Assembly: GCA_903813345.2 (NCBI GenBank) | Contig: CAIIXF020000005.1 | Location: 24,431,375 to 24,495,374 of the forward strand | Source: Owenia fusiformis | Taxonomy: Eukaryota; Annelida; Polychaeta; Sabellida; Oweniidae | DNA length: 64,000 bases | Reading direction: 5' to 3' | Shown here: positions 12,128 to 61,549 of the stretch, in pieces | Layout: every line of letters starts with the position of its first letter | Numbering within the stretch: position 1 is the stretch's first letter | The notes under the pieces: generated by a model | The model's database searches: none | Told to the model about the DNA's origin: nothing | Seen by the model: only the letters and a program-made list of their open reading frames with translations | Program-made: the position numbers and the translations under genes

Positions 12128-12340
12128 TTACAATTTAGTATCTTCCACCTCAGCTTGCGCTCGCTCCTGTTCAGTAAATTGTTCTATGGGTACAACCCAT
12201 CCATTGTCCTCATCCTGCGGCTTGTGATGCCCATTCACTGGAGGTGATTTCTCCATCATACCTGCCTCATCTCTCATGATCTCCTCATCTGAGATAGGGT
12301 TCTCTACATCACCATGGCCTTGCTCAAGCTTCATATGCTC
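12128..12340 (-). CDS. Cytoplasmic tail and stop
   Basis: 70 codons and a stop. The tail is acidic and hydrophilic (EHMKLEQGHGDVENP to AQAEVEDTKL) and has no tyrosine. No signalling motif is recognised. Acceptor ATTTGCAG ends at 12341. Confidence 0.85.
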   Translation of the reverse strand, partial: EHMKLEQGHGDVENPISDEEIMRDEAGMMEKSPPVNGHHKPQDEDNGWVVPIEQFTEQERAQAEVEDTKL

Positions 12341-15300
12341 CTGCAAATCATAAGTAACCCAAATTAGGGAAATCTGCTTTATGTTTTATTCAAAACCAAA
12401 TGTGAATCCAGGATTCCAAGTAAGGCAGCAGTACACAGGTTTACATCAATATGACACAGGGGTTCATTTTTTGGACGATTATAACTTACAATTCCAAGAA
12501 AACCATCGTCTACTTTTTGACAAACAATGACTTGAGACCAAATCATAAGTCCAATGGTTCCAAAAATAGGCCCTAGAATGGCAAGTAGGAGATCAGAAAT
12601 TTAAGTTTTTTTAACTGATTTGAATATTTTCTTAAAACTAGAACAGCTCCCGTTTTCTGTGCTATTTGCAGTTTTTTAATCAATCGTGTCAGCCTGGGAA
12701 GAGATGTACTGAAGAGGCAACTGGTTTATACTGATCACTCTTTAAACTTCCAAAAAATTAAACTAATATTATAATAAAATAGTCAGCCACATCAGTACAT
12801 GAATGGCATGTTTACTTTTTTTGATATAGGAAATATAGATTGGCATGTTGTTGCTCACTTGATTGGACAAATGGACTTCAGCTGATAGGTACCTTATAAG
12901 AATTTTATCCATATTTTGTACCATCCCTTATACATATATTTATATACTTTTTTTCTGCTTCCAGGACAATGACTATGAGAGTATTATATCTACATGCATG
13001 AAAATCTCAGATAAATATAATTCAAAATAGTTACAAACCTTATCATCTGGGGTCCATTTGCCTCTCTTGCCTTTGCATAGGATACAAATAAGTGCTATGA
13101 TGATCACAATCACACATATACCAGCGAGAACAAACAGAGTGATCCAAAGTCCATAATGAGCATCAAACACATTCTGGCGCTGCTCTGCTATTACGATGGC
13201 TCCACCTGGTGGCCCTTGTTTCCACGAGATTACATTGCGTTTCAACTGAAAAGATTGTTGTTCACATTAAAAATAATAAGCAGAACTTTTTTTATTACTC
13301 AATCAATGTTGTCTTGAAATACTCATTTGTTCTTCTAAAATTCAATTTATCTTCTGCTACCAAGACAATTCAACTTTAATTTATTATTTGATCACCATTT
13401 TTCTGACATTTTCTGATCATGAATATGGATAATATACCAAATCAAAAATTGGACAATTTCCCCAATCTTATTTCCCACAAAGACATAATATTAAATTCCT
13501 ACTGCATCATCCAGTTGTTTCCTGAAGTTGCCATTTGCTAATGCTGTGTTTATGTGATCCTTATCTACCACATCACTCTCTGAAAAATAATGCCCTGAAT
13601 ATAATATGCAAACCACTCTCTCAGTTGTGCCTCTTGTAGATTATTTTGTAAGTTCTATTTTACTTTAAGGTTGCCATTCATGACATTTAAGTTCTGACAA
13701 AAGATTGTTCGTGAATACAGATAAAAATCCAAAGATAGTTATTCTTATGTAAAGATGATTGCGGAAAACCATATGCAAATATCCAAAAATTTCTTCTTAA
13801 AGTGATTTAGATATGATCAGGAGAAAGGGACTGTAGATAAGTTCTATAACCACAATCTCTTTTTATTAAGGAAATAAAGAAATCATACGCTGTACCTTCA
13901 GATGATCTCTTGTATTTTCCTCCATCTTCTCTTTCTTCATCAGTTGAGTTTAAGATGAAAAAGGCCACTTCAATATCCCCTGTTTCAGTTTCCCTAGGTG
14001 TGGGAGCAACATAGATTAGGGCCTCTTCAGTGAGGTTGGTATATGTATTTGGAATTAATGTTACTACTGGTGCTTCATTCAATGTTGTTGCCTCTTCGAC
14101 AGTGGTTTGAACAGTTTGCACTTTTTCAACTGTTGTTTGAGTTGCTTCAACTGTTGTTTCAGTTGGTTCAACAGTTTCAACTACCTCAGCAGTGGTTTCA
14201 CCTACTGCAACAGTGGTCCCAACCTCTGTGACGGTGGTTTGAACAGTTTCAGCAGTTGTTTGAGCTGCTTCAATTGTTGTTTGAACTGTTTCAACTGTTG
14301 TTTCAGCTACTTCAGTGGTTGTTTCAACTGCTTCAACAGTGGTTTCACCTGCTGCAACAGTGGTGTCATCCTCAGCAACAGTGGTCTGAACTGTTTCAGC
14401 AGTTGTTTGAACTATTTCAGCAGTGGTTTGAACTGCTTCAACTGTTGTTTGAACTGCTTCATCAGTTGTTTGAATTGCTTCAACAGTCGCTTCAATTGCT
14501 GCAACAGTGGTTACAACTTCTTCAACAGTAGTGGCAGCTTCTGCAGCAGTTGTTTGAGCATTTTCGGCAGTGGTTTCAACAGTTGTTGCAACTGCTTCAA
14601 TGGTGGTTTCAAGGTCTGTTTGTCTCTTGCGGCGTCGGCGGTTATCAACAAAGTCTTCAGTTGGGAACTGTGAAGGGTCTTCTAAGAACATGTTGAACAG
14701 TCGCATAAAGTGATACCTGAAGTTCTCATCAAAATCTTTGATGTCCTGTAATAGAATACATATGCCATAAACTTTAACTTATTAACAAGGCAATAACATG
14801 AGAAAGTTTAGCACCTGCAAATAGGTTTCAAAAAGTGTAACAATATATTATAAATGCAAACTGCTGATTCTGATCTTCATTTTTGCAAATATGTTGTTGC
14901 TTGTATTAAGACTGTTAAATAAGTGAACCATGCGTTTGTCTTAGCTTTACATTATACTTAAGGTAAGTCAAGTAATTTGTAATCTGGCCAATGTAAAGAA
15001 ATTGAATGTGTTACATGAGGTGAATAGAAAAGTACATAGTGAACAAATAAAGTACATAAAATCAAATATTGGCCACCAAGCTAATGACAATAAAAAAGAG
15101 AAAACATGTGCATCATAAAGAGCATCATGAGAGGAGCTATTCTCTTCATGAGAAAAAGAGTAGATATTCTGTATTCACAAGTAGATATTCTGTATTTACA
15201 AGTAGATATTCTGTATTTACAAGTAGATATTCTGTATTTACAAGTAGATATTCTGTATTTACAAGTAGATATTCTGTATTTACAAGTAGATATTCTGTAT

Positions 15301-18300
15301 TTACAAGTAGATATTCTGTATTTACAAGTAGATATTCTGTATTTACAAGTAGATATTCTGTATTTACAATTACTCACAAAGTCTTGTTGTGAGTTATTGA
15401 AGTAGACTGTTATTGTATTTTCCACCTCTTCTTCTCTCATATCTTCTCGTAGTCTGTATGGAATACCAAGATACTGAAAGAATAACACATAAATCAGAAA
15501 CACTGCCAAATATAACATGCACTTCATCTCCAAAGTATTTTGTACAGGGTCCATTTTAACATCAATTTTCATACTGTCTTGATTTATTATTTTTGTTGAA
15601 AAGACTACATTGAGGGTTGTCCAAGAAGTTCTGCACTTACTGCAATAACAATTAGTTTACTTACTTAAATCATTCCTGAAACAACCTTCGTAAATTGTAC
15701 AGAAATTGTACAATGTCACAATGAGTCTTTTCATATATGAAATATGAATATTGATGAATTTTAACCAACCTGTCGACAAGAAATAGAGAAATTAGTAAGA
15801 AGATCACACACTTGAAATTCTTTACACACTATTAGTGTAAGAAAATGAATACTCATTCACTTTGTAAGAAAATATTTTAAGCGAAAGAAGGAAATTGAAG
15901 TTTAAAAGGCTTGTTTTGTAATTACAGATTACACAGAAGAAAGTTATTAGGTAAATTAAGACTTAAAAAAAGTTAAGAAATCACTGCAGAGAGGAAAATT
16001 ATTTTGGATGGTCTATACAGTAAAACCTGTCCAAAGTAGACACTAGATGATCACATTCAAAGCATCCAACATTGAGGATTTTCACACTATTTGTACAAAC
16101 AATAGAAAAGGTTGAAAGAAAAGTGTTGATTTTTTAGGTATTCACTTAATGATGTGTTTATTTATGCAGGGTTTACTGTATACGTTATTTATCAGAGAAA
16201 GCATACAATAAAATGATAATAATCATTCATGCATGTTCAGCACTTGCATATGTATATACAATAAATATTAATAACATAAATAGTAAATACTGACAATCAT
16301 GCAGTGTCATGCTGTGGCCTTCATACAGTATAATAAGTTTGTTTGAAAAATCATCTGGGACATTCTTTGGACAAAACAAGACAAAATAATTGTGAACTTC
16401 AATTGTATTTCTAAGTATGCTAAACATCACTTAAAAGAAAAACAAAGTCACGAATCATAAAATCATTTTTTTCATAATATCATCTTATATCAAATATTCA
16501 GTCATTACATTCAGCGAATCACAGCTATTGACAACATTAATGAAATAATTCAAGTAACTATCCTTTACAGGATAATAACAATAGCATATAGAATTGTGGG
16601 TGTTTTATTTCAGTTATAAAAAATAAAGACTTGTGCATTCATGCTATATCATATGTTATGTAATAATACATTATGTAATATATAATAAGGTGTTTAATTA
16701 CAGGTGTTTATTATTTCCAGGTGTTCTTACATTCCAACAGGCAGGTGTTTCCATTAAGTACTTGATGCTGGATGGGTGTTTCTTTATTTCTATGATATAC
16801 CTTATTTTGAACATCATCAACTTCTGGTGTAGTAGCTGATGTTGTACCTGGGGGGCTTTTAGTATGAACAGTAACTCCTGGGGTTTTGGCAGTTTGGGTA
16901 ATTTTGTGTTGTTTTCCATCAATGGTGGTGAGATCAAAGTCATCTTTGGCAGTAGAAGTAAAAGACTGCGTAAGATCCGATATTGGACTAACTGATGTAA
17001 AAGTATCATTTTCTTGTGCCCTCATGGCATCATAAGCCTCTACAGATAAACATCTCAGCTCACTGCTGAGTTCATACAGGCCAATCCCTTTACAGTCTAA
17101 GGAAGCCCTTTTCCAAGTCCCTCTAATGTTACAGTAGACTAGCATAGGCCCAACACTTGTACAGTTTACAACTGAAATGTCTTCCTCTGTAGCATTCTCC
17201 TTGTTGACAGTGGTCCCTCTCTAAGCAATAAGACGAGGTATAACATAATTTATATTATCCTAGACACCACTTTAAGGCACAAAGGAGAATAAATGATACA
17301 GACTAAGTTATGCATATGTACCCCTGGTTAAGTTGTAGGTCACAATAAATAAATAACATCATTCCATATATAATAGTTTCAATAAACAGAATGGTCAACA
17401 GATCTACACCCCTTTAACAAAGGAGATGTACTTGTGCATAAAAACAACAACCCTCAAACCTATATTAAAGTGTTAAGAAGACCCTTAAATCCTCAAATTG
17501 TTGCAAATCCTTGAGATCAAACAATTATTATATAACTGTGCCCTCCAATCAGCTGTTATAAGCCAGTAATTAAAATAAAAAAATAAACAATGTGATGACG
17601 TCAGTCCAAGAATCATTCCCCATGATGGCTTTTCGATGAAAAAAGTACCGATTTTGTCTTGCCGCTGTGTAGTCAGACGATGTTCAATTTTGATGATTTG
17701 AGGTTGATTCTAACACTTTAAATAGAGCACCTAGAATGTAACCCTGATATACACCTCTTAAAGACTTTCCTAAAATAACGCTTAAGTACTTACTCATGTA
17801 AATTCCAACAACATGCAGCATGGAAATAGAAATGACAGATGAAGTAAATAAATAAAAAAAATGGATGTACTAGTCTATACCAAATGAGATAGGTTTGAGA
17901 AAAAAAATCTAAAAAAGTATTCACATAGCATTCTATTAATTATTGAATATCACCTCTGAACAAAGTGTCATGTTGGTGATGAAAGATGCAAAAAGAGCAT
18001 TAGAACAGGAAAACCAGCAAAGAATAAAGCAAACATGTACCAATTATGCAATGGTAATGGTACACAATTGAAGGAACATTTAGTTAATGCAATCACATCT
18101 TAGTAGGGGTCTGTAGATTATTCCTTCATGGCCCAACCCTTTACAGCCTATGGAAGATTGAAATTGCTGGGACCAATTGACAGTCATGTTTAACTACTGA
18201 AGACTCAATTCTACTAAATATCAAAGGTGGTATCAGATCCAGTAAGCAAAAATTGTTTGTACTTTAGAATATATTGGGCTCATATCATTCCTTATCATGT

Positions 18301-21300
18301 CTATTTTATAAAAATCCCAAAGTGTATACATAATGCAATCATTTTTCTTTAAATATGGTTACCACATTTATTTTTTGGGAGAATTTAAACATTTTCCCAA
18401 ATTTTTGCACTTTGAATCAGAAATAACTACACCATGCAATGCAATTGATAGGGTATTGTGAATCTTTTGGGAGATATTCATTTGAGATCATGAAGAAAAT
18501 ATTGGTAGATCAATTGTACATGTCACTTGCAATTTTGTCACTCACTATAGATCTGATTCCACCACAAAACAGCATAATCAAGATAATTCAAACTTCTGGT
18601 CAAATAAGTTCATGCCACAATCACTAATATATTATGCAAAAATGTTCTGCTTTAAAAACAACAAAATCAATTTAAGGCTTTCTCAAGTGTTCATGATAAA
18701 AAGAAATAAAGCATTTCTGGTATAAAGAAATATTGCAGATCAACAGAATTAAATCAATACATACTTTTTCATATTATTTGGTGTTATATACTTGATTTAT
18801 AATTCATATGGTTTATGGAGATTTGGCTTGTGTTTCCAATACTACCGTTAGTGCTTCACATCATACCCGAGCCTTAATTTAGTTACCTACCGAGAATTCT
18901 GTAGTTGAAGCTTCCGTTGTAGTTAAAGCTTCAGTTGTAGTCGTAGTGATAGCTGCTGTAGTCTATGAAAAGGGGTAGGGAGACTAATATTAAGTGACAA
19001 AGGGATTTCAAACCATTCACCTTACACTTCCCCTCAAAGATTTGGCAACCCTACCCCCAATTAGGAAGAGTGTTAAAGCCAATTAACAGGGCATTAACAT
19101 ACAAAATGTCACCACCTAACCATGTGTTGCCAAACACCAACCATTGAACATAATCCACAAAAAGTAGGAGACTATAACAATATGTCAACACTTTTGGCGA
19201 TGACATATAAATTTCCAAACACTAAAATTCTGTAACATTAAATGCAGTCTAATAGGGAAGTTAGCATCCTCCGATCACAGGGCTTCAAAATCCAGAATAT
19301 CTTCTTTCTTTTTACCCCCTGCTTTAACCAAGTTGGACGCGCCCGATTAAACTGAATCACGTGATCTTATTATGCGCCGATGACGTATACATGATTTCTG
19401 TCGCAGTGTTGCGACAGCCAATCAAATTGCGAGTTCTTAATCGGGGAAATGCTAACTGCTTATAGCAGGGGGAAGAAGGAGGTACGGATTCTGGACACCT
19501 GCTTAGGAGGATGGGAAGTTAGGAGTTGCCAAACTTTTGAAGGGGAGTTTCAATTGTACCTTAAGTTCCTGTGTGTACCCCCACCCTTTCCTATTACCTC
19601 TTTGAGAATACAAGCTAGAGAAACTAAGGGTATGTGAGAGGAAACTTCATATCATTCAGGTCCTTTAACTCTCTTCTCCTAACAAGGTTATTAGTATTGA
19701 GGGAAGCAAGGGGGGGGGTTGTTACACAAGGACCTGATGATACAATACAGTACTAAATTGAAGAGTGCCACACACAAGTGATCATCTCAATTAAATATAC
19801 ATGGTAGGACAACTTCCATCTTTTTTATCTTTTTTATTTCCAGCTGTCGTTCCCCTGATATGTGGCACTGGAATATTGTGTGAAACATAAAACATTGTGC
19901 AGTCAAATTCATGGGAAATTTCTCACCATTTGATTAACATATTGAGTAATTTGAATTTCATCTAATTGGCATCATCAATAAAAATTTTGGAAAAAATGAA
20001 AAAGGTCGAAGTTCTTTAGCCCACCCTGTACAAACCTGGTAGAGTAAAACCTGTCTAAAGTGAACAGAAATGTTACTTTCACTGGTTATAGATTCTGGTG
20101 GAACTTTATACATGTACATGCATGTTGAAGCGTTCAGATTTGTTGCGTTCATTTTTACTCTTCAATATCAGGAAAAGTAACACCCGTTACCTTTCTTTTC
20201 AAAATAGTTGGTGGTAAACATTGATTTTGGATAGCTTTAGTTACCTTCTGATATTGACCAGTGACTATAGAGAGGTGTTCACTTGTATATAGCACTCTTT
20301 GTCCTATAGTGTATGCAAAGACTGTGTTTTGGACATTTATACTTAATGGAAACAAGAATCATACTTTAAAATGGGGAGTAGTGTGGATTTGGAAAGAATA
20401 AAGTAAAAGCATTTAAAGAAAAACATAATTTCTTATGTTTCCCTTTCTGCTCACTTACATGACTAAATATTCTTAATTAATGTACTTTCAACATTGTCAA
20501 GTGGTGATGGCATATCTGTCAAGTTTGATTCTTATTTATTCCACTTTTTCCATTCTATTTCAAAATATGACTAATAAAGCATTTTCTCTTCGGTAGGACT
20601 ATTACTATCTATAGATAAGGTTCTATACAGGAAGCATATATACTGACATAAAAACTACTTATTTATTTAGTAGGAAAACTATACTATTATCGACATGTGT
20701 TGAGGTAGAACAAACTGCACATATTTTAAACTAAAAGCCACAAAGAATTTAATATAGCAGATCTATACGTAAAGAATTGACAGGGGCAAATTAGAGGGGA
20801 AATGACAGGGGCAATTATATGGTGTTTAGTTTTCAGGTACGGTGTAAATTTTTATGTAAGCCAGAAGAAGTTTTTTCATTTGTAGTGTGACTTGGTTTTG
20901 GATGAGGAACCTCCTTGTCCAGTGATGTGATTGGGCAGTACATTTCTGATTCTTAAAATTGAAACATGGTTGGCCCTGTCATGCCCCCTTTAACTTTATC
21001 TATTTGGCAACTTTTCGATGTCTTACCATAGATTGTGTTGTTGTAGGTTCTGTTGTAGTTGCTTCTGAAAATACACAAAATACATTTGTACAAAGGGTGG
21101 GCTAAAGTGTCAGATCCGATTTAAAGGAAAATGTTGTTTTAAGTTTGTTTAATTGTTTTGAGATTGAACCGCATTGATTCATTTGAGATTGTGAATTACA
21201 GATCTAATTGAAAAGGGATATATTATATTTATGATATACATATCATAAATTATATTTATTTTTGCTACCACTCTTGCAATTGTGAGATGCACTATTGACT

Positions 21301-24300
21301 GAAATGCTAATACATATACCACAACTGTCCCCTAATCTCAAAGCTTCACCTATCTCACAAATAAAATATTGATTGTTGTACAGAGGCAGATCTTCAGACT
21401 GTGTTTAGATTGAGAATTTTGGAACTATGAATTTCTCCATAGCAACACAAGTTTCATCTTGCTTGCTGTTTGCTGTAACACGTCAACCGATATTGTAAAC
21501 CATGTAATACGTATGTAGAATGCCAGATTAATAGGACAGTATGCAATTTTGTTTTTCAGATATAATATTTTTTTTGTTGTTGCTAGATTCCTAAGACAGT
21601 ACGCAGTTTTTTTAAATGTAATATTTGTGTTTTTGCACGTAATACTTTTATTACCTCATTCTTTTATGTCAAGAAAGTAAATATAACTGAACTATTTGAT
21701 AGTTTGAACAACCATAATAAGATATTGGGGTATTTAAACCATCAATATATTGGATCTATTTCAAAATATTTCAAATAGTGAAGTGGGTGTAAATGTGTCC
21801 AATTTATAAACACTTTAAAAAGTCAATAAAAAAACTAAGTTAAATGTTTCTTATCTTATTTTGATAGTTTATGACCGTATAAGCAGACATTTACAGTCTA
21901 TCAAACGCTCTATCAAACAACACTAGCTATTGCAAACTTGACTGTGATAAGTCTTCACTAAGTACATTTCTATACAGGACATTCCAACTAGTAAACAAGA
22001 CATTAACATGCAAAATGTCACCACCTGACGCCAACTGCCTAACACTAAGAGCCAAAAGTGGTGATGACATAATCACAGTGTGGGATATGAACTAATATAT
22101 TTGCTTATTTCATGAGTCATACAAATCATTCACTATCAAACAGGAATCAATTTGTTTTTGCGATAAAATATGACTTTATTTTTATCTCAGATTAAGTCAG
22201 AATATATACCATTCGTGAGAAAGGGTGGCTCCTGAATGATGCATCCAAAATCAAGTTTAAGATTTTTATCAAATAGGAATGACAATAGTCATTTAACTTA
22301 TGATTGTTTGTCATTTGTTGAGCATCAGCAATTTATACTTTTTATAAATACGACTGTATCATCTGAAATGTTTAATGCATGCCTCGTTCATTTCAGTTGC
22401 CATTTTCAGGGCTTCTTTTGGGAATTCTTTCATTTCAATTTTAGACTTTGGGAGCCCCAATGAGGAACTATTTAATAACAGACCTGTTGTCTTTTTTTCA
22501 TTTTTATAAGAATGAGAAGACAGAATGCCGAAGAATATGAGTTCAAGGATTACATATGTTGCATTGTTTTTTTCTTTGTATATTCACAATTTTCCAGCAT
22601 GGAAAGATACAGGTAAATAGATGAAAAGTTTTATGTCAAATTTACTTATAATCAATCAAAAAAATCAAACTGAATTAATATTTATAATATTAACAGCCTT
22701 CTTTCCTTAAAAATTAATTCCTGGAGGAAATTAAATTAGCATTCTTTTACAAATTGTACAATCATTATTCATTTTTGTTACACTGCATAATATGGCCTCT
22801 AGGTGTCACTGTATATTGTATAAAAATATGAAAAAAATGAATTGAGGAAATTAACAGAGTGAAGCAATCTCTCTTTGATTTCAGAGGAATGTCACCATGA
22901 CAACTTCTTTTTAGTGAGACAAGGCTGGCGGCCCGGTTCCAATTGCACAAAAATGCAATACATACGAAGGAATTCAAACTTAACAGACTGCTTTAAGTCA
23001 GCATGTAAAAACAATAGCAATTTAGTGATACATAAACAATATAAACTAAAACAGGCCTGCACCCTCTATAGATGTGAATCAAATCACGACATTACTGATT
23101 GGGAATATGGATGGAGCAACAAATGGGAAAGCACAAAAGCTTATGCGTTGTTGCACCCATCAACACCAAGGTGTCGAAACTCATTCTTCATAAGAAGAAC
23201 CTGGGACACTGGTAAAAGAGTCTGTGCAAATTGCGACAATATAAAATACATGAATGTGGAGGATCTATATTCATGCATGTCACATGCATGTGATGAGGAA
23301 GCTAATGCTTTGAACTTCTGGGACAAAAGAAAGTGTCAAATAATGCGGTGTAGATGGAATTCTACAAGACTGAGTTATAATTTCAACTTCTCGAGAACTG
23401 CTGCCAAAGTAACTACATACAGCTTGGCATCCCAGATCACAACAGTAAATACAATGACGACAATTTTATCTCCAAAACCAACAACGCAAACAAAACCACA
23501 ATTCTTCAGAGTGCTTGCTCTCATTATGACTGGAGTAGCAGGAATGGTCTTGGGGTTAATTACTGTTGCAGTGTTCTATTACATACTAATACATAGGAGG
23601 AGACAGGAGCAAATCCCTGGGCAGACATCTAGAGACAGTTTGGATTATTACTCCTATACATACACCACTATAGATGAGTCTACTATGATGCCCTGCGGCC
23701 CACCCTCATTAAAATGATCGAAATGCATTCCAATGTATGTAGAATAATCCAGAGGGAAGTCTCTCAAAACAATGAAATCGTAATTCTTAGGGCAGATAAT
23801 ATGGCAGGATGAATAGTAATTTAAAGATTGCATTAAAGACACATCTGACATTATATGATAGCATACATGATTCTTATATCTGCATATATTAATTTTAAAA
23901 AATCATTTTTAAGATAACCACAAAAATATTTTTCTATATTTACTTGCCTAAAATGTACATAAATATCTGTATGTCTAACTTATGATGTAAATGCTTTAAT
24001 TTTAAATGAGATCATTTCTTTAATATTGTGTATTATGTTTTGTTGAGAATAAAAATTGTAAAATTATATCTTCAATATAATTTGTACAATAAGAAATAGG
24101 GCATTATAGCAATTCACATACATATACAATGTAATGTGCTTTGCAATACCAGGTGATGTGTTACAACCAGGTGAAACTTGTGTTGCTATGTAGAAATTCA
24201 AAGTTACTATAGCTACCTACCTGTGGTTGGTGGTTGAGTTGTGGGTGCTTCTGTAGTGGTTGGTGGAGGGTTGCCAAGTGCTTCCCATGGTAAAGTTTCA

Positions 24301-27300: not shown

Positions 27301-30300
27301 GGAAGTATTCGCACACGGATCTGTCAATTAAGGTAAAAAAAAGTCATTAATATTGAAAAATAATGATGACAAATATGGCATGCCTATGTTCCTTGTGACA
27401 TGGTTTGATGCTATCTAGAGGTGATTTGTCCACTTATCATTCACAGTACCTCTAAATATAGCATCTGAATGCAACATTTACTTTACTGTTTCTAACTTTG
27501 GAATCAAATTGCATTTTCATGTTTACATAGTTACCATAATCATATTAAAGTCATACTGTGAAAATCACAAAGGGCAACATATTACAAAATCTAAAAAATC
27601 ATTGAACCTCATCCACAAGAGGATTAAGGTCAAATGACAATAGTCCATTTAAATTTGATAATGACATGTGGTTGCAGCATGGATGTTCATTTACCCCTGG
27701 GTTACTAGTATATCATACAATATGCATAATACAATTGAAGAGTTCTCTGCAATTATATAATGTCATCATAGAATAAAGGGAATGAAACAAATATGTATAT
27801 CAAAATGAAACAGAAATGAAGGGAGATTTCATGAGGAAGATAAAGAATACTGAGATCAAACAAGAAGGGAATATCAATTATTTGGGCAATAACAACAATT
27901 TAGGACTAGAAGGATCATTCACTTGAAAGTTTTTTATATTAAAACATCACATTCTGCCATCAAACTTTATCTTAAAGAAGACACAACAGGATATTTATAT
28001 TCCATATTTTCAAAAATGTAAGGTCCCATGCACCATTAGTTTTTATCCTATATATCTCAAACTACAAGCATGCCGAAAGGAAAATATACCAGGGTGCTCA
28101 CTAGCCCTTTAGCCCATTAATATTTGCTACCATCTCTTTAGCCTCACTCTTGATCATCAAAAAATACTAATAAAAATGTTTATTTAGGCAAACAATTTCA
28201 AGAGATGTCCTTGCAAATCATAAATGCAGAAAGCTGTATGCAATATTCAAACCTTTCCTTCCAAATGTCTAACCTTTGTCTACCAAAAACATATTGAGCA
28301 CCCTGAATATTGAGGAAGGGATCGTACCAAAACAACAATGCATACCACAATGCATATGACCCCTCTTGATCTGATGTCACTGATAGAAAGCCAATGCTAT
28401 CAATCAGATATTAAATGATATTAACTTCATTCACTGCTCTTTGAATTTACATCGTATTACCATTTGTTTAAGAGACTTGACATGCATTTGTGGATGTTGG
28501 CTTTTTTCACGCAAGCCCATTTTGTCAAATATTAGCCATTCAATGTTTTGAATTGACATGTATGAAGCATAGCACACATATAATGCATTTGGCTTTTGTG
28601 CATTCTCTATGGTGACAATATAAAATTTTCAAAATTATTTTCTGGTAATTAAAAGTCAGAGAATTTCATGTAGAGCCTAAAACAATGAGGACTTACAAAG
28701 GGCAAGATTTGAAAATCAAATCACAACCCTATATAAATTCTAGGAACCACAGTCAACCGATATTAAAGTGATATATGTATATACTGGGGTATACCAAGGG
28801 GTATAATGGAGTATTGAAGCTTCAATTTTTGAGATGATATGATAAGTATGATTCAACTCTAAATGTTTATCATTTTTCTAAAATGAGTAGAATTATTTGG
28901 AGATAGTGAGACCAAAATTCATGAAGACCCAAATAGAGAATTTCTTTCATGTTATGTTTAATTAAAAGCATGAGATAGTTATGCCTGAGTTGAATAAAGC
29001 CACATAGTTTTTTTCCAGACAGTCAATCACATTGCTTATAATTCAGCCTTATGAACAGACATCATCATCGCATAGCCCAAGCGTTAACATGATGTACCGT
29101 AACAGAGTCAGCTGCATGCATTGGGTAGTTCCAGAGGTAGCAAAGCTGTAGCATGCAACATACCCACTTCTGTTGGGATACCACCAGCACTTCCTCCAAC
29201 TTCTGTGGTTATTGTTTCTGCAGTACTTGTTTCTATGAGAGTTGTTTCTGCAGGAGTTGTTTCTTTGAGAGTTGTTTCAGCAGGAGTCGTTTCCAAGAGA
29301 GTTGTTTCTGCAGGAGTTGTTTCTTTGAGAGTTGTTTCTGCGGGAGTTGTTTCTGCAGGAGTTGTTTCCAAGAGAGTTGTTTCTGCAGGAGTTGTTTCCA
29401 AGAGAGTTGTTTCTGCAGGAGTCGTTTCCAAGAGAGTTGTTTCTGCGGGAGTTGTTTCCAAGAGAGTTGTTTCTGCAGGAGTTGTTTCAGCAGTAGTTTC
29501 TGCAGGAACGAGAATGCCAGGATCACCTGTTGTTTCTGCGTGAGTCGTTTCTGCGGGTGTTGTTTCTATGACAGTCGTTTCTGCAGGAGTTGTTTCCATG
29601 AGAGTTGTTTCTGCAGGAGTTGTTTCCAAGAGAGTTGTTTCTGCAGGAGTTGTTTCAGCAGTAGTTTCTGCAGGAATAATAATGCCAGCATCACCTGTTG
29701 TTTCTGCCTGAGTCGTTTCTGCAGGTGTTGTCTCTATGAGAGTTGTTTCTGCAGGAGTTGTTTCCAAGAGAGTTGTTTCTGCAGGAGTTGTTTTAGCAGT
29801 AGTTTCTGCAGGAATGATAATGCCAGCATCACCTGTTGTTTCTGCCTGAGTCGTTTCTGCAGGTGTTGTCTCTATGAGAGTTGTTTCTGCAGCTGTAGTT
29901 TCTGCAGCTGTAGTTTCTGCAGTGGCTGCTGTTCTTTCATTAATTATTCCTAGGCCTCCTTCCTCTGTTGTTGCTAAGGTGGTGGCCCCAGTTACTAATG
30001 TAGTGACAGCTGTTAAATTAATGTACTACTAAAGTTATACAAATACCCACACCCTATTAACCTAGGTAGCAACCCAATTCAATACTTTTAAATCAGCAGT
30101 TAAGATGTGTTACTATATACTCAACATTTAGTTTCATGGACCATATAGTGATTTCAAGAAACCCATGTGTCTAATGCCTCAGTCACATTTGTTCTAAGGT
30201 GACTGAACAGCAACCACAGTACCTTGAAATTGAGCAATACCTTTGACAATCATTCATCAATGGTCAGTTACTATAGCAAATGTGACTGAAAGGTTTTATC

Positions 30301-33300
30301 CAAATATGGTTCCTTAATTGAGATACATGTAAAAGGAGATTGTATTGGGTTACTACTCACATTAATAAAATAAATGTGATAATGCAGGGCCTATCTTAAA
30401 AGCTCAAGTTGCGGTAGAGTTTTCTCAATTCATTTCTAATACATTGCCAATACAAGGAATTCATTGAAAAATTCCATCAAAATCAAGAAAAAGAAGTTTA
30501 GAATCAAGAATTTATAAGCTGTTATGAGAACTTTTTATAAGCCCCTCATACATGCAAAAACATTCACACACATTATAAAGTGAAGAGATCAGTAGAAAAA
30601 TGTGAAGGGGAACCAATCGTGTTTTCATTATCAGAAATAAGAAAAGTCAAAATAGTGTCATGGATAAACATATCTATTGAAAAATACATGCAATTATAAA
30701 CTAATAAGATGGCATTATATTAATGTTAACATGGTAGTCAAAAGATAAAAATAACATAATACATTTTAGTTGGTAAAACTAGAGTTCCTTAGTCGCTGAC
30801 ACCATTAATAAACAGTATGGGTATGGATGAAGCTTTGTTTAATTAAACAGATTCCAAAATAACTATTTCCACTTTTATCTTACCAACATTATCAGAAGCT
30901 GTTGTAAGTTCCTCAGTGACTCCAGTATTGGGGGCTTCTGTCATTGCTGCTTCTGTTTTTGCTCCCTCTGTTGTTCCTGCCTCTGTTGTAGCTGCCTCCG
31001 TTATAGCTGCCTCTGTCGAGTCTGCCTCCGTTGTAGCTGCCTCTGTCGAGTCTGCCTCTGTTGTAGCTGCCTCTGTCGAGTCTGCCTCCGTTGTAGCTGC
31101 CTCTGTCGAGTCGGCCTCCGTTGTAGCTGCCTCTGTCGAGTCGGCCTCTGTTGTAGCTGCCTCTGTCTCTAGTATTGCTGCTTCTGTTGTCTGGGTGTTT
31201 GTTGTTGCTGCCTCTGTGGTGTCTGCCTCTGTAACAACCACATCTGTTATGACCTCTGGATGAGTTTCAGTAGCTAATGTTGATGTGGCAGCTCCTTTAA
31301 GGGAAAATAAAAGGAAACATTATAATATGTAATACATTTGGGGTTAACCTAAATCATAACATAATACAATATAAGCTCTTTGGGAGAAAGTAATTTTCCT
31401 TTCACTTTCATGTATCAAAAAATAAAGGAAAATAAAGGTAGTGTTTCCCTACCAGTCTCACTTGCACTTTCAGCGACAATAGTCTCTTCATCAACAGGAA
31501 CAGGTTCAGCTGTTGTTCCTTCACCAGTACCAATTGCACTTTCAGGAACAATAATTTCTTCATCAACAGGAACAGGTTCAGTTGTTGTTCCTTCACCGGT
31601 TCCAGTTGCACTTTCAGGAACGATAACTTCTTCATCAACAGGAACAGGATCGGCTGTTGTTCCTTCACCAGTACCAGTTGCACTTTCAGGAACAATAACT
31701 TCTTCATCAACAGGAACAGGTTCAGATGTTGTTCCTTCACCAGTGCCAGTTGCACTTTCAGGAACAATAATTTCTTCATCAACAGGAACAGGTTCAGCTG
31801 TTGTTCCTTCACCAGTACCAGTTGCACTTTCAGGAACAATAATTTCTTCATCAACAGGAACAGGTTCAGCTGTTGTTCCTTCACCAGTACCAGTTGCACT
31901 TTCAGGAACAATAGCTTCTTCATCAACAGGAACACGTTCGGTTGTTATTTCTTCAACAGCACTATCTGGTCCACCCCCGACTGGATCTGCAGTTGTGCCA
32001 GCTGCAAATGAATCACTCTCCACTTATTCAGCATGTATGTATTAACCCCTCAGGTTTAATTTTTCAAAGGGATAGGCTCCAGTCTAAATTTCACAAAAAT
32101 TATAAGATTTTGAGTGGGATTGTATTAATGTTGTCAAATATTTAAATATACTAAATGTTTTGGTGTCTTTAACTGGTTTTAGACAGAAACATCTTTGACT
32201 ATTAGCATTTTTGTTTTACTGACTATAGTTATTAATTCCTATAGTCAGAAAAAAATTGATTACTAATAGAACACACATTTTTCATTAAAACAATGTGCTT
32301 TCTCCAGGTAGTTCGAAGGATAATAGAATGCCTATTTAGCTCTATAAAAACATAGATTTTATTAGAATCCCATCTATATCTTTTTCAGTACATTGTCAAA
32401 GATCTTTGAAAATTGGAAAAGGGAATGTGATAAAGTTGACAACATTGTTTACCAATCATATCAATTAGCCAGAGGAAAACTCATACAATAAATACATTGT
32501 TTTCATGATTCATCCCACTTTTTTCCACCAAAAGTCTTCAAAAGTACACCCAATTCCCTTCTATTCTTCTAAATGTTTTCCTCTCAATGAACTTCAGGTC
32601 CTTTGCATAGTTATGAAGTATATAGAGGCATCCTCTACATCCCTCTGAACATTGTTCAGGGATAATTATGTGAGACATTAAAATATATTATATACATACA
32701 AAATGTTCGAAAAGTAATTTTTAAAAAAGATTTCTTGCCAAACTGCATGCATAACACACCTTGCACATGCCCTCCAACTACATTCTAATGCATGATTCCA
32801 ATACATAATTATGTTCTCCAGTAATTGGTTTCAATTTCTTAAATTGTAACAATGCTCATGCTAAACCATGTGTAAAATGTGCTTTCATAACTAAAATATT
32901 ATAGCCTGCTGAATGAAGTAGTTGTTTTTATGTTAAACTAACGAATTGATTTAGGTTTGCAATATTTCGATTTATTCTTTAAACCTTTTTTAAGCAACTG
33001 AAAATTGTTCGTATAATTATAAGAACAATATTCAGTGGCTTGAAAAGGATTTAAAGAATAAATTGAAATATTGCAAAACTAAATCAATCTGCTTAATGAA
33101 GTTGACTGAAATGTTAATAGCATGCTTGTATTGTTTAACATAATATATTGAGGCCTCAGTATAATAAAACTACAAAAAGTAAAGGTATATTATTACAAGT
33201 CAATAAAGGTTACATAAATACATGGTTTTACACCAGTATTTTTCTCTATAAGAAAATACTGCACTGTCTATGCTAATAAGCAGTGATCTCCCCAGCATTA

Positions 33301-36300: not shown

Positions 36301-39300
36301 AACAACAATTAAGTCATATTAAAAATGACTTTTGTGTAGGTGCTTAAAATCATATTTATAACATATGATCTCATATATGTATGTAGTGATAAAAGAGACA
36401 GAGATGTGTGTATGGCTGTAATGGTATTATTTACAGTGTTTGTGTTTGTGTGTAAATTATATTAAAAGATAAAGCATTAAAGGTGTGAAGCTTTTTAAAA
36501 TTAAAACAAACTAAACCTTTTTGGGTTATAGGTGATTGCCTTGGAGTTGCAACATCAATTTTAGTAAGGGATTTCTCTAAATGGTAGAATGTGGATTGAT
36601 AGGGAGTTGTAGTTGAGGGTTCAGCTGGATTGATAGATGTGGAGATTGGTTCAGAAGTCAGGTCAATTGGTTTAAAAGTTTGTTCATCTATTTCAGAAGT
36701 TAGTTCTGTAGGTTCAGCTGGGTCAGTTAGTTCAATTGGTTCAGCAGCTGGGTCAGTTGGACCAGCAGTTTGGTCAGTTGAATCAATTGGTTTAGCAGTT
36801 TGGCCAGTCTCTTCAGTAGTTGGGTCAGCTGGATCAGCAGTTGGATCACTTAGTTTTGAAGTTGGATCAGTTGGTTCAGAAGTTTGGTCAGTTGGATCAC
36901 CAGTTGATACAGTTGATTTTGAAGTTAGGTCACTTGGTTCAGAAGTTAAGTCAGCTGGACCAGCAGTTGGGTCAATTAGACCAGCAGTTGGATCAATTGG
37001 TTTAGCACTTGTGTAAGTTGGTTCAACAGTTAGACCAGCAGTTGGATCAGTGAGATCAACTGGCTCAGCAGTTTGGTCAGTTAGACCAGCAATTGGATCA
37101 TTTGGTTCAGCAGTTGGGTCAGCAGTAGGGTCCATCAGTTCACCAGTTTGGTCAGTTGGATCAACTGGTTCAGTAGTTGGGTCAGTTAGACCAGCAGTTG
37201 GGCTGGTTGAATCAGCAGTTGAATCAATTGGTTTAGCAGTTTGGTCGGTTGATTTAGCAGTTTTTTCAGCTGGTTCAGAAGTTTGGTCAGTTGATTTAAC
37301 AGTTTTTTCAGTTGGTTCAACAGTTGGGTCAGTTGATTCAGAAGTTGTGTCAGTCGGATCAGTAGTTCGATCAGTTGGTTCAGCACTTATGTCACTTGAT
37401 TTAGCAGTTGGGTCAGTTGGTTCAACAGTTTTGTCGGTTGGTTTAGTAGTTTGTCCAGTTTGTTCAGCAGCTTGGTCGGTGAGTTTAGCAGTTGGGTCAG
37501 TTGGTTCAACAGTTTTGTCAGTTGGTTTAGTAGTTTGTCCAGTTTGTTCAGCAGCTTGGTCGGTGAGTTTAGCAGTTGGGTCAGTTGGTTCAACAGTTTT
37601 GTCAGTTGGTTTAGTAGTTGTTTGTCCAGTTTGTTCAGCAGCTTGGTCAATGAGTTCAACAGTTTGGTCAAGTGCCTCAGCAGTTGGGTCAACTGGTTCA
37701 AGAGTTAGATCAGCAGTTGGATCAATTGGTTTAGCAGTTTGGTCGGTTGATTTAGCAGTTTTGTCAGTTGGTTCAACAGTTGGGTCAGTTGATTCAGAAG
37801 TTGTGTCAGTCGGATCAGTAGTTCGATCACCTGGTTCAGCAGTTAGGTCAGTAGATTTAGCAGTTGGGTCAGTAGGTTCAGCAAATTTGTCAGTTGGTTT
37901 AACAGTTTGGTCAGTTAGTTCAGCAGCTTGGTCAGTGGGTTTAACCGTTGGGTCAATTGGTTCACCAGTTGGGTCAGTTAGATCAACTGGGTCAGCAGTT
38001 GGGTCAGTTGGATCAGCAGTTGGGTCGGTGGGAACAGCAGTTGGATGAATTAGTTCAGGAGTTGGGTCAATTGATTTAATAGTTGAGTCAGTTGGTTCAG
38101 CAGTTTGGTCAATTGGTTCAACAGTTGGGTCAGTTGATTTAGCCATTGGGCCACTTGGTTCAGCACTTATGTCACTTGATTTAGCAGTTGGGTCAATTGG
38201 TTCAACAGTTTTGTCGGTTGGTTTAGTAATTTGTCCAGTTTGTTCAGCAGCTTGGTCAGTGAGTTTAGCAGTTGGGTCAGTTGATTTAACAGTTTTTTCA
38301 GTTGGTTCAACAGTTGGGTCAGTTGATTCAGAAGTTGTGTCAGTCGGATCAGTAGTTCGATCAGTTGGTTCAGCACTTATGTCACTTGATTTAGCAGTTG
38401 GGCCAGTTGGTTCAACAGTTTTGTCAGTTGGTTTAGTAGTTTGTCCAGTTTGTTCAGCAGCTTGGTCAGTGAGTTCAACAGTTTGTTCAAGTGCCTCAGC
38501 AGTTGGGTCAACTGGTTCAAGAGTTAGATCAGATGGATCAGCAGTTGGATCGATTGGTTCAACGCTTGTATCAGCAGTTAGGTCAGTTGGTTCAGCAGTT
38601 GAGTCGACTGGTTTAACAGTTGGGTCAGTAGGATCAACAGTTGGATGAGTTGACTTACTAATTGGATCACCTGGTTCAGCATTTTGGTCAGAAGGTTCAG
38701 CAGTTGGTTCAGAAATTTTGAGAGTTTGTTCAACAGTTGGATCAATCAGTTCTACAATTGGGTCAGTTGGTTCAGCAGTTGGATCAATTGGATTTGAAGT
38801 TGCATCAATTGGTTCAAGAGTTGGATCAGCAGTTGGATCGATTGGTTCAGCATTTGGATCACCAGTTGGGTCAGTTGGATCATTTGGGTCAGTAGTTAGG
38901 TCAGTTGGTTCGACTGGATCAGCAGTTAGGTCAGTCAGATCAGTAGTTGGATCAATCGACTCAGCAGTTAGATCAGTTGAGTCAGCAGTTGGATCAGCTG
39001 AATCAATTGGTTCAGCAGTTGGGTCAACTGGATCAGCAGTTGATTTAACTCGATCAGGAGTTAGGTCAGTTGGATCAGGAGTTGATTTAACTCGATCAGG
39101 AGTTAGGTCAGTTGGATCAGGAGTTGATTTAACTCGATCAGGAGTTAGGTCAGTTGGATCAGGAGTTGATTTAACTCGATCAGGAGTTAGGTCAGTTGGA
39201 TCAGGAGTTGATTTAACTTGATCAGGAGTTGGTACAGTTGGTTTTGAAGTTGGGTCTGTTGGTTTAGAAGTTATATCGGTCGTTTCTAAAGTTGGTGCAA

Positions 39301-39655
39301 TAGTTTGGTCAATAAGTTTAGAAGCTAGGTCACTTGGTTCAGAAGTTGGGTCAATGTTTGTTAGAGTTGGGTGAATAGATTCAGTAGTCAAATCAATTAC
39401 TTCAGCATGGGGGTCAGGTTTAACACTTGTAATGCTAAGATCATGTTTGGTTGGAGCAAAACAGGGGTTGGTATTGATTTCAATTGTGTCTGCACCGATG
39501 GGGGCTGGTTCAGCTATGCCTGTATCAGGCTCATCTTTAGAGTCAATGGCTTCAGCATCACTAGGGGTAGGCTCGGGGATTCCTCCACATGCATTGCCAG
39601 CTACAACAAGAACTACTACTATAACACTACAACAGCAAAACAAAGTAAACAACAT
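12128..39655 (-). CDS. Giant membrane mucin with D8C domain and possible SEA-like region (about 15 coding exons, about 2,465 aa)
   Basis: Exons in transcript order: 39655-36517, 32001-31453, 31294-30884, 30009-29164, 27320-27163, 25116-24882, 24307-24221, 21064-21027, 18962-18891, 17220-16801, 15473-15378, 14745-13896, 13579-13503, 13245-13039, 12340-12128. Every junction keeps phase and the total is 7,398 nt. The protein reads as signal-like start, acidic Thr/Pro heptads (to about 1046), three further Thr/Glu repeat exons (to about 1648), D8C domain (about 1649-1779), Thr-rich linkers, a small Cys-containing segment, a possible SEA-like region split by a furin-like RRRRKR and another Thr repeat, a transmembrane helix (about 2359-2383) and a 70-residue acidic tail. 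It should sit in the plasma membrane with a long O-glycosylated ectodomain. The repeats make the exact length unsure, and the 5' end may be further upstream. Known D8C proteins (uromodulin, GP2, OIT3) differ in the rest of their architecture. Confidence 0.82.
13039..13245 (-). CDS. Juxtamembrane segment and transmembrane helix
   Basis: 69 codons, phase 0-0, acceptor TTTTCAG and donor GTTTGT. A short stem is followed by a hydrophobic helix of about 25 residues (LWITLFVLAGICV, then IVIIIALICILC) and the stop-transfer sequence KGKRGK. This sets type I topology with the mucin part outside the cell. Confidence 0.9.
13503..13579 (-). CDS. End of the possible SEA-like region
   Basis: 77 nt between TTTTTCAG and GTAGGA. 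It encodes SDVVDKDHINTALANGN and FRKQLDDA, which resembles the last helix and strand of SEA-type juxtamembrane domains. The family call is tentative. Confidence 0.72.
13896..14745 (-). CDS. Furin-like site and heptad Thr repeat inside the possible SEA-like region
   Basis: 850 nt, phase 0 start and phase 1 end (donor GTACAG). It starts DIKDFDENFRYHFMRLF, continues to RRRRKR|Q (14623-14640), a strong furin-type site, then about 190 residues of seven-residue Thr units (EAVQTTV, ETVQTTA), then APVVTLIPNTYTN and GDIEVAFFILNSTDEE. On the plus strand the repeats make false Leu/Phe- or Cys-rich frames. Confidence 0.8.
14746..15377. other. Mucin-gene intron filled by a minisatellite
   Basis: A 632-bp intron. 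About one third is the 21-bp array at 15161-15370, right behind the 5' splice site. Nothing else is recognised. Confidence 0.8.
15161..15370. repeat. 21-bp minisatellite, ten copies
   Basis: The unit TAGATATTCTGTATTTACAA plus G is repeated ten times with almost no divergence; the first copy has one C. On the transcribed minus strand every unit reads TTGTAAATACAG, which resembles a weak splice donor. The array begins 7 bases downstream of the GTGAGT donor at 15377-15372. Confidence 0.95.
15378..15473 (-). CDS. Possible SEA-like region, first part
   Basis: 32 codons, phase 0-0, with acceptor ATTCTTTCAG and strong donor GTGAGT. It encodes YLGIPYRLRED and VENTITVYFNNSQQDF. A minisatellite starts seven bases beyond the donor. 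Confidence 0.78.
16018..16178. mobile_element. 161-bp pogo-type MITE with TA target duplication
   Basis: It starts CAGTAAAACCTGTCC after TA and ends GGGTTTACTG before TA. Termini match those at 9108, 48748, 52288 and 54205. It lies in an intron of the mucin gene. Confidence 0.78.
16801..17220 (-). CDS. 140-codon exon with a small Cys-containing segment
   Basis: Phase 0-0, acceptor GCTTAG and donor GTATAT. It begins RGTTVNKENATEED, then VNCTSVGPMLVYCNI and RGTWKRASLDC. The C-x-C-x-GxW-x-C spacing recalls the end of CCP or hormone-receptor modules but is too short to assign. It ends in a Thr/Pro-rich tail. Not recognised. Confidence 0.75.
18891..18962 (-). CDS. Thr-rich linker exon, phase 0-0
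   Basis: 72 nt between TTTCATAG and GTAGGT. It encodes TTAAITTTTEAL followed by TTTEASTTEFS. The exon is symmetric and could be skipped without a frameshift. Confidence 0.78.
18963..21026. other. Mucin-gene intron with a CpG-rich patch and MITE fragments
   Basis: It holds a dispersed hairpin-like repeat near 19080-19210 (ATGTCACCACC type, also at about 22000 and 43530), a CpG-richer patch at 19335-19445 and a pogo-type terminus at about 20043 (GTAAAACCTGTCTAAAG) without a clear partner end. Confidence 0.5.
19335..19445. promoter_or_regulatory. Intronic CpG-rich patch with E-box, CCAAT and a perfect hairpin
   Basis: In otherwise AT-rich DNA this patch has CACGTG, TGACGTA and CCAAT, and a perfect 8-bp stem CTGTCGCA/TGCGACAG (19398-19417). 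It is bounded by CCCGATTAA and TTAATCGGGG in inverted orientation. It could be an internal promoter or enhancer, or a short MITE; the inverted ends slightly favour a MITE. Confidence 0.35.
21027..21064 (-). CDS. 38-nt microexon, Thr-rich
   Basis: Acceptor TTTTCAG and donor GTAAGA bracket 38 nt encoding EATTTEPTTTQSM. It changes the intron phase from 1 to 0, so exons downstream are no longer in the phase 1-1 class. Confidence 0.75.
22525..23717 (+). CDS. Nested antisense gene: single-pass receptor-like protein with duplicated Cys module (306 aa)
   Basis: Exon 1 is 22525-22612 (donor GTAAAT), exon 2 is 22885-23717 (acceptor TGATTTCAG). The split codon G|AG keeps phase. Exon 1 encodes a signal peptide (hydrophobic YVALFFSLYIHNF). 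The ectodomain has two homologous blocks, each with a leading C and FF, a middle C, then CxxxAC and a final C-x3-RC: about residues 32-94 and 124-190. The CxxxAC...CxxxxC spacing recalls MANSC domains, but this is a weak match. A Thr-rich stem, a transmembrane helix (VLALIMTGVAGMVLGLI onward), a basic stop-transfer (HRRRQEQ) and a tail with a tyrosine cluster (DYYSYTYTTI) follow. NxS/T sites are frequent. The gene lies in mucin intron 24220-21065, on the opposite strand. Confidence 0.82.
24048..24053 (+). terminator. Poly(A) signal AATAAA of the nested gene
   Basis: AATAAA lies 331 bases after the stop codon in AT-rich DNA and before the next mucin exon at 24221. It is the first canonical signal downstream. 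Confidence 0.6.
24221..24307 (-). CDS. Thr/Pro linker exon
   Basis: 29 codons, phase 1-1, with clear acceptor (TTTTTAG) and donor (GTAGGT). It encodes ENETLPWEALGN followed by PPPTTTEAPTTQPPTT, a typical O-glycosylation linker. Confidence 0.82.
24882..25116 (-). CDS. D8C domain, second exon
   Basis: Phase 0 start, phase 1 end. It begins QGYCGTGRPMVV and contains VVRCCGVSKTPIRIKNCG, then DFYAYELKN and CPTAFC. The CGT, CC and KNCG-FY-YxL motifs are diagnostic of D8C (uromodulin, GP2, OIT3). Together the two exons hold ten cysteines. No ZP domain follows, unlike in uromodulin. Confidence 0.9.
25795..26863. mobile_element. About 1.07-kb non-autonomous transposon with long inverted repeats
   Basis: Ends are ATACAGGGTGAACCAAAAAA and TTTTTTTGGCTCACCCTATAT. 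Homology between the arms continues for about 200 bp (TTTTAAGTCATATTTG with GAACCTTGTTC against its complement). The core holds a tandem duplication of about 152 bp (GACAAAAATGGTG at 26293 and 26445) and a GACA microsatellite. No transposase is present. Confidence 0.75.
26535..26597. repeat. (GACA)n microsatellite
   Basis: About 60 bases of GACA/GACG/GATA tetramers inside the long-TIR element. Confidence 0.9.
27163..27320 (-). CDS. D8C domain, first exon
   Basis: Phase 1 start, phase 0 end. It begins DPCANTSIYDSEG and contains NCDQYIPSGWWRFR and IIPTSC. This matches the first half of the uromodulin-type D8C domain, where DPC is followed by GWYRF and MPxxC motifs. Confidence 0.88.
27321..29163. 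other. Intron with no recognised features
   Basis: AT-rich DNA between the last repeat exon and the D8C domain. I see no exon, MITE ends or tandem repeat that I can support. Confidence 0.5.
29164..30009 (-). CDS. Mucin repeat exon 4: AETTLLETTP units
   Basis: Phase 1-1 exon of 846 nt (282 codons), acceptor TTTAACAG and donor GTATGT. It is made of 10-residue units such as AETTLLETTP, grouped in a higher-order repeat ended by QAETTGDAGIIIP that recurs about three times. It ends SAGGIPTEV before the D8C domain. On the other strand the repeat gives long false Cys/Ser- or Val-rich frames. Confidence 0.85.
30010..30883. other. Intron between repeat exons 3 and 4
   Basis: AT-rich sequence without recognised features. 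Both flanking exons are phase 1. Confidence 0.5.
30884..31294 (-). CDS. Mucin repeat exon 3: TEADSTEAAT units
   Basis: Phase 1-1 exon of 411 nt, acceptor TTAAAG and donor GTAAGA. After a short lead (GAATSTLATETHPEV) it is a run of 10-residue TEADSTEAAT units (30 bp) with shorter TEAAT variants. Very high Thr, Glu and Ala suggest an extended O-glycosylated stretch. Confidence 0.85.
31453..32001 (-). CDS. Mucin repeat exon 2: seven 24-aa units
   Basis: Phase 1-1 exon of 549 nt with acceptor TTTGCAG and donor GTAGGG. It starts AGTTADPVGGG, then seven units of 24 residues (72 bp) of the type VPVDEEIIVPESATGTGEG plus TTAEP. The units are rich in Glu, Val, Gly and Thr and unlike the heptads of the previous exon. 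Confidence 0.85.
32945..33088. mobile_element. 144-bp near-perfect foldback
   Basis: The left arm ATTGATTTAGGTTTGCAATA pairs with the right arm ending TATTGCAAAACTAAATCAAT. The arms of about 58 bases enclose AATTGTTCGTATAATT. It is a snapback MITE type, family unknown. Confidence 0.75.
35123..35240. mobile_element. 118-bp foldback
   Basis: Left end ATTGTAAATCTGAATGCA pairs with right end TGCATTCTGATTTGCAAT. An inner pair (TTTGATTGTGA and TCACAATCAAA) extends the stem. No coding. Confidence 0.7.
35931..36205. repeat. 135-bp tandem duplication
   Basis: Two copies start ATGGTTTGCCCTGGGCACAG at 35931 and 36066 and run to AACAAAGAAGCAGTAA. Small indels separate them. Confidence 0.85.
36517..39600 (-). 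CDS. Mucin repeat exon 1: about 1,028 aa of acidic Thr/Pro heptads
   Basis: Translation is a long run of seven-residue units of the type TDPTAEP, TDQTAKP and IDPTADL, so the DNA period is about 21 bp. Higher-order repeats are visible: an about 28-aa block (QTTKPTDKTVEPTDP type) tripled near 37430-37640, and a 14-aa block (LTPDRVKSTPDPTD) repeated about five times near 39030-39230. The exon can start at 39600 (acceptor CTTGTTGTAG, phase 1) or be read from the ATG at 39655. It ends at 36517 before the weak donor GTTTAG, phase 1. Confidence 0.83.
39601..39655 (-). CDS. Alternative N-terminus: signal-peptide-like extension of the mucin
   Basis: ATG at 39655 follows an in-frame TAG. It reads MLFTLFCCCSVIVVVLVVAG and could be a signal peptide. 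The same bases could instead be the pyrimidine tract of a splice acceptor at 39600, which would be in phase 1 like the other repeat exons. Several AG dinucleotides just upstream of 39600 argue against that acceptor. Both readings stay open. Confidence 0.5.
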
Positions 39656-59604: not shown

Positions 59605-59735
59605 TAACTTATTGGGTGTTCAACTTATTGGGTGTTTTCAAACTTATTGAGTGTTCAATTTATTGGGTGTTTTCAAACTTATTGAGTGTTCAACTTATTG
59701 GGTGTTTTCAAACTTATTGGGTGTTCAACTTATGT
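59605..59735. repeat. TTATTGGGTGTTCAAC tandem array
   Basis: Units of about 17 bp (ACTTATTGGGTGTTCA) alternate with a longer form containing TTTTCAA, six to seven copies in all. Confidence 0.85.
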
Positions 59736-61540: not shown

Positions 61541-61549
61541 ACCTCATAT

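Follow-up and report, generated by a model that had tools for sequence, protein, structure and literature searches.

The ten-cysteine D10C fold is described in the available part of PMC8930769, according to which the N65A replacement in GP2 (DPCQN65YT) impairs FimH binding, N65 being a glycan site. A figure legend of the same source names UMOD, GP2, OIT3/LZP and VWDE as mammalian D10C proteins, and in the available part of PMC7737619 UMOD is reported to contain EGF domains, a ZP module and a glycosylphosphatidylinositol (GPI) anchor and to polymerise. A domain of this type (D8C/D10C) was analysed in the annelid Owenia fusiformis, in a stretch of 64,000 nucleotides (nt) of assembly GCA_903813345.2 (contig CAIIXF020000005.1, positions 24,431,375-24,495,374, forward strand). 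This whole stretch, which is AT-rich, is hereafter named the window, and all coordinates refer to it. We give an even chance to the reading that one gene is encoded on its minus strand, the predicted product being a type I single-pass surface protein of ~2,450 residues. The order of its parts, with D8C among acidic repeats and then a membrane anchor, is unusual, and the verdict that best fits the sequence is that a known domain stands here in a new combination of parts, the single transcript being only predicted.

Fourteen exons of the minus strand, between 39655 and 12128, were joined into a 7,350-nt frame of 2,449 residues, the sole stop codon of which is the terminal one. Exon frames were picked mainly by content (repeats, D8C, long open frames and the transmembrane (TM) span), and splice sites were scored using consensus tables. 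The phases agreed at all 13 junctions of the chain. An initial annotation of this locus had also joined a spliced minus-strand frame, with 15 exons and no exon list; the joining was reproduced here in phase and with one terminal stop, using 14 exons that include a small one at 18955/18952-18891. The repeats, the D8C, the type I anchor and the phase-compatible joining of the protein proposed in that annotation were retained, whereas SEA as a named domain for its possible SEA-like region and the term mucin in the strict sense were not.

The D8C/D10C domain is split between exon 5 (27163-27320; DPCANTS...GWWRF...TSCIK) and exon 6 (24882-25116; QGYCGTG...RCCG...CPTAFC), which together spell DPCANTS...GWWRF...TSCIKQGYCGTG...HTC...RCC...IKNC...FTC...AFC. 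The spliced domain scored 26.9 bits against the Pfam family D8C_UMOD (PF23283; E 5.5e-6, cut-off 27), and a rough exon join scored 22 bits. Global alignment paired 10 of the 10 cysteines, which in this domain type would make up five disulfides, with those of UMOD (33 of 118 aligned residue pairs identical) and 9 of 10 with those of GP2 (38/119), and the shuffle Z values were 7.9 and 12.4, respectively, with 0 of 1,000 shuffles in each case. The sequon DPCAN-TS of exon 5 lies at the place of DPCQN-YT (N65) in GP2. Some results tell against this assignment. The score of the isolated domain is 0.1 bit under the curated cut-off and falls to 22.7 bits in a 985-residue piece, MAFFT put only 8 of the 10 cysteines in the same columns (the other two were displaced by one residue), the N275 sequon of UMOD is absent here (AYELK vs VYNLT), and a phmmer search of PDB with the spliced D8C did not reach UMOD at E 1. 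That search returned four weak chains (spectrin, SLIT-ROBO GAP; best E 0.053); a PDB search with UMOD letters found UMOD and GP2. The just-missed Pfam cut-off and the PDB search without UMOD would also fit a chance or decayed reading of the block, but the ten cysteines, GW[WY]RF and CC occur in order, the splice sites are intact and the shuffle tests gave 0 of 1,000, and we regard such a reading as hardly credible. NCBIfam gave no match for the domain. Scans for relatives by the second D8C exon yielded 52 pattern matches in genome contigs and 10 in viral contigs, none of which was confirmed. The D8C recognised in the initial annotation is thus upheld by the 26.9 bits, the ten cysteines and the shuffle tests, and the identity of exons 5-6, as judged from sequence comparison, is secure.

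Upstream of this domain, exons 1-4 encode ~1,600 residues of acidic Thr/Pro/Glu/Asp repeats with units of 7/14, 24, 10 and 5/10 residues. Exon 1 (36517-39655) begins with an ATG and a signal-like hydrophobic start at ~39655-39584 (seen by eye and hydropathy only), continues with ~1,000 residues of acidic repeats of the TDPTAEP type and ends in a phase-1 donor (AAAG|gtttag). Exon 2 (31453-32001) carries the 24-residue repeat (TTAEPVPVDEEIIVPESATGTGEG), exon 3 (30884-31294) the 10-residue repeat (TTEADSTEAA) and exon 4 (29164-30009) the 5/10-residue repeat (ETTPA / ETTLL); these three exons and exon 7 are of phase 1-1. Tandem Repeats Finder (TRF) reported 21/42-bp units in several rows within 36775-39241, a 72-bp unit at 31451-31959, a 30-bp unit at 30961-31167, a 15-bp unit at 29212-29922, where a higher order of 138 bp is also present, and, in exon 11, 21/147-bp units within 14114-14580. 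The repeats of the initial annotation were borne out by these rows in exons 1-4 and in exon 11. Its label of mucin fared differently. Under the usual rule for proline/threonine/serine (PTS, mucin) domains (serine plus threonine above 40% and proline above 5% per 100 residues), 7 of 2,350 windows of 100 residues qualified, and the PTS domain of a transmembrane mucin was not found. Serine plus threonine amounts to 0.22 to 0.36 of the residues in exons 1-4, aspartate plus glutamate to 0.18 to 0.25, and the ectodomain is strongly acidic, with a net charge of -344. 'Mucin-like, acidic' is the fairer description of this protein.

A first weak joint of the chain concerns whether exon 1 belongs to the same gene as the D8C. 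Its donor scores -3.3, the lowest of the 13 donors, which makes the join of exon 1 to exon 2 uncertain. Its frame is open to a stop at 36433-36431, and one possible leader (30628), paired with a phase-1 GT at 30567, falls between exons 3 and 4. Both features would fit a start of the D8C gene elsewhere, exon 1 then being a gene of its own that encodes a secreted protein of acidic repeats. However, the donor of exon 1 is of phase 1, as in the next three exons, and no AATAAA occurs from the exon 1 stop to 35179. Moreover, within the hydropathy threshold of the screen, neither the interval from exon 1 to exon 2 (36.5-32.0 kb) nor that from exon 7 to exon 8 had a listed ATG that combined a hydrophobic start with a GTA/GTG donor of phase 1. 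Exon 1 remains the best start because no further candidate of this kind was listed in 36.5-32.0 kb, and a separate exon 1 gene appears unlikely to us.

The join of the repeats to the D8C is made by the phase-1 donor of exon 4, the leftover G of which completes the Asp of the DPC at the start of the domain. The initial annotation had considered that a stop and a polyadenylation site between 29164 and 27320 might divide the locus into separate genes. This found no support, since the phase-1 donor feeds DPC and the sole AATAAA, at 28184, lies ~925 bases past the read-through stop. The AATAAA test in this intron is weak, as the final stop at 12128 also lacks AATAAA down to 11000 and other polyadenylation signals were not sought.

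The D8C block and the membrane block are bridged by exon 8. Exon 7 (24221-24307), a Pro/Thr linker (PPPTTTEAPTTQPPTT), ends in a strong phase-1 donor (score 7.1). Exon 8 (18891-18955), a Thr-rich linker (ITTTTTEALTTTEASTTEFS) with acceptors at 18955 and 18952, takes phase 1 and leaves 0 (an alternative donor at 18887 would leave 1), and exon 9 takes and leaves 0; exon 8 is therefore in phase on both sides and supplies the phase linking the two blocks. For phase-1 exons in 24.2-17.0 kb, four candidates were listed, half of them at 18955 and the other half at 20303 (QRVLYTSEHL...). The splice scores of the 20303 candidate are slightly above those of 18955, which was preferred for the Thr-rich content that the former lacks. 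When the minus strand of 24200-16600 was resampled with a first-order Markov model, a spliceable exon rich in Thr/Ser (at least 50%), in any phase, appeared in 1 of 100 resamples; open frames of 169 codons or more likewise occurred in 1 of 100. The real minus strand of this interval holds six overlapping candidates of the Thr/Ser-rich kind. Its plus strand holds none, and the 284-codon frame found there belongs to a nested gene. This likely two-exon gene (22525-23717, plus strand; exons 22525 or 22537-22612 and 22885-23717) lies within intron 7 on the opposite strand. Its predicted product, for which no family matched at cut-off, is a type I membrane protein rich in cysteine, the tail of which (DYYSYTYTT) is rich in tyrosine.

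Exon 9 (16801-17220, phase 0-0) comprises a four-cysteine segment at 17168-17040 on the minus strand (NCTSVGPMLVYCNIRGTWKRASLDCKG...LRC), of unassigned fold, and a Ser/Thr linker. The segment had no Pfam match; by eye only, it resembles part of a hormone-receptor or sushi module. Exon 10 (15378-15473), which takes phase 0, begins the membrane-proximal region (VENTITVYFNNSQQDF). The joint between these two exons is where the one-gene model meets its most serious rival, namely two tandem genes, one for a secreted repeat-D8C protein ending at 16711 in the read-through of exon 9 and another for a membrane protein that starts at the ATG at 15554 or 15527 with its own signal peptide. Two features of the sequence speak for this split and against a single gene. 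Read-through of exon 9 stays in frame up to a stop codon at 16711, and AATAAA occurs at 16712 and 16609; exon 10 reads upstream into the signal-like MKCMLYLAVFLIYVLFF, i.e. MKCMLYLAVFLIYVLFFQYLGIPY, the ATG running straight into exon 10. Of 497 acceptor-like sites in the whole window, the exon 10 site included, 24, 14 and 3 have so hydrophobic a read-through leader at hydropathy thresholds of 2.3, 2.8 and 3.1, respectively; with these counts, one such leader among 13 acceptors is not rare at the lower thresholds and is unusual at the highest. On the other side, the donor at 16801 and the acceptor at 15473 agree in phase (0-0), although both ends have alternatives, the T-rich tract before the acceptor itself translates into hydrophobic residues, no clear A-x-A type cleavage site was seen by eye after the leader, and AATAAA is common here (25 occurrences on the minus strand in 11-40 kb). 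The two-gene split is, in our estimate, somewhat unlikely. Intron 10 itself carries ten nearly perfect 21-bp copies (15159-15369, from its ninth base). The frame of exon 10 reads on through them as (KYRISTC)n to 15084, and intron retention would add a cysteine repeat.

With regard to the joints of the single-gene chain as a whole, 15 of the 26 boundaries had no rival site within 90 bases scoring within 1 of the chosen site. The remaining 11, which weaken the chain, have a similarly strong alternative, some in another phase; these are the acceptors of exons 7, 8, 10, 12 and 13 and the donors of exons 1, 4, 8, 9, 10 and 12. Because such alternatives exist, some of them in other phases, the phase agreement should not be valued at the full 3^-13.

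The membrane-proximal region is predicted to run in the order VENTITVYFNN, DENFRYHFMRLFNMF, RRRRKR, heptad repeat, ALIYV, FFILN, DKDHINTALANGNFRKQL and TM span. Exon 11 (13896-14745) provides a predicted helix, the RRRRKR motif (14640-14623), a 175-residue heptad repeat and the low-confidence predicted strands ALIYV and FFILN, and is followed by exon 12 (13503-13579; ESDVVDKDHINTALANGNFRKQLDDA). The repeat of exon 11 differs in kind from those of exons 1-4, having seven residues (consensus [VA]E[TA]V[EQ]TT) with heptad positions 0 and 3 mostly hydrophobic. Single-sequence AlphaFold2 modelling of exon 11 alone gave a helical repeat at low overall confidence (mean predicted local distance difference test (pLDDT) 62.0, predicted template modelling score (pTM) 0.36), and according to this model the heptad repeat may be a helical stalk. 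Exon 13 (13039-13245) contains the juxtamembrane part and the TM span (13149-13075), which by reading is the one long hydrophobic span after the signal-like start, and then the basic KGKRGK. A single further exon (exon 14, 12128-12340) encodes the acidic cytoplasmic tail and the stop codon, which ends at 12128. The type I membrane anchor of the initial annotation is therefore confirmed by the span, the basic residues after it and the one exon left to the stop.

That annotation had also seen a possible SEA-like region here. By eye only, the likely order of elements (strand, helix, then strand, strand, helix) is SEA-like. No SEA match was obtained in Pfam, the translation being scanned piecewise, and local alignment gave Z values of 1.8 against a MUC1 segment and -1.2 against a MUC16 segment. 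SEA was not accepted, as neither the profile nor the pairwise test backs it. With a composite of the membrane-proximal region as query, PDB yielded two chains, at E 2.3 and 2.9. In the piecewise Pfam scan, which covered nearly all residues, no ZP module was found after the D8C and no EGF match either.

The membrane-proximal part might instead be of the KIAA1549 type (the first helix precedes a furin-type site and the TM precedes a PD motif), the heptad repeat being an insertion behind the site in a member of that family. The TM part scored 17.4 bits against PF12877 (E 0.0016; 16.1 and 15.9 bits in two other scans), and a KIAA1549 segment with its TM included gave a local Z of 8.9 (0 of 500 shuffles) and an hhalign E of 7.8e-6. 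The 17.4 bits come from the TM only and are under the Pfam cut-off of 24, and the similarity is gone when the TM is removed (Z 0.16, hhalign E 0.2), so that the likeness may be one of TM composition only. We doubt this membership, and on the sequence evidence the kinship is only a lead. The membrane-proximal region is best described as one of unassigned fold with a predicted furin-type site.

Elsewhere in the window, an open frame at 2052-3035 (plus strand) possibly encodes a zinc-finger protein (HCECCKKKFTRKSN, by eye; no Pfam match) and carries an in-frame 24/72-bp repeat at 2369-2614. Several tandem arrays with 16/35-bp and 21-bp units such as CTTGTTATACCCCACATATCA occupy 59601-61813, apparently in non-coding DNA. 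No Rfam match at the gathering threshold and no tRNA were found in the whole window.

If the one-gene model is followed, the repeats would make up a stalk that is extended, carries negative charge and is probably O-glycosylated, while the disulfide-rich D10C head would sit in the membrane-nearest third of the protein. A cut in the secretory pathway might occur at RRRRKR, after which the two chains would stay together or the ectodomain would be shed, and one helix would anchor the protein in the membrane. The head would present an N-glycan where GP2 has its FimH-binding glycan, and the protein, rather than building a ZP filament, could act while tethered to the membrane, either as a barrier or as a decoy that binds microbes. 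Such a role at the surface would be the most economical reading, because the position of GP2 N65 is one at which the head could carry a glycan. The chances are slim, in our view, for the complete proposal of a glycan-presenting D10C head on a furin-processed, membrane-tethered acidic stalk that acts as a cell-surface decoy. Were it true, D10C would have served in glycan display first, the ZP filament being just one of the structures that carry it. If one transcript holds, the D10C decoy domain would occur outside ZP polymers, on a membrane-anchored repeat protein, and one could test directly whether decoying by glycans is older than filament formation or independent of it. A split of the region into two genes would leave an ordinary pair of proteins rich in repeats, one of them secreted and the other at the surface.

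In the literature searched, no paper on both D8C and a SEA domain was found, invertebrate proteomes lying outside its coverage, and nothing linked KIAA1549 with a SEA domain. Judged by title, the results for the D8C domain and mucin concerned kidney disease or uromodulin trafficking and those for D8C and bivalves were irrelevant; broader searches gave nothing on a D8C-repeat-TM architecture. Similar proteins may sit unremarked in invertebrate proteomes, because the literature and collections searched do not cover them. KIAA1549 has a basic cleavage-like site before its TM, and the protein described here shares such a site and a weak TM-region match with KIAA1549 and KIAA1549L, but the match is below cut-off and nothing outside the TM is alike; we know of no D8C in either. 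With the transmembrane mucins of the MUC1/MUC16 type it has in common the signal-like start, the long Thr-rich repeats, a membrane-proximal module and, by reading, a single TM followed by a cytoplasmic tail. It differs from them in that SEA was undetected, the PTS density is reached almost nowhere and the repeats are strongly acidic, and no D8C is known to us in transmembrane mucins. OIT3/LZP and VWDE also have D10C, together with ZP, or with VWD and EGF, by name; to our knowledge, neither has an acidic repeat stalk or a TM. According to the initial annotation, the D8C proteins known so far terminate in ZP or EGF parts, which agrees with the four D10C proteins of mammals in the figure legend of PMC8930769. 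In contrast to UMOD, the protein of O. fusiformis has a transmembrane span and no ZP or EGF match. With both UMOD and GP2 it shares a D10C with ten cysteines and, with GP2, also the DPCxN-x-T sequon, the glycan of which binds FimH in GP2 (PMC8930769, available part).

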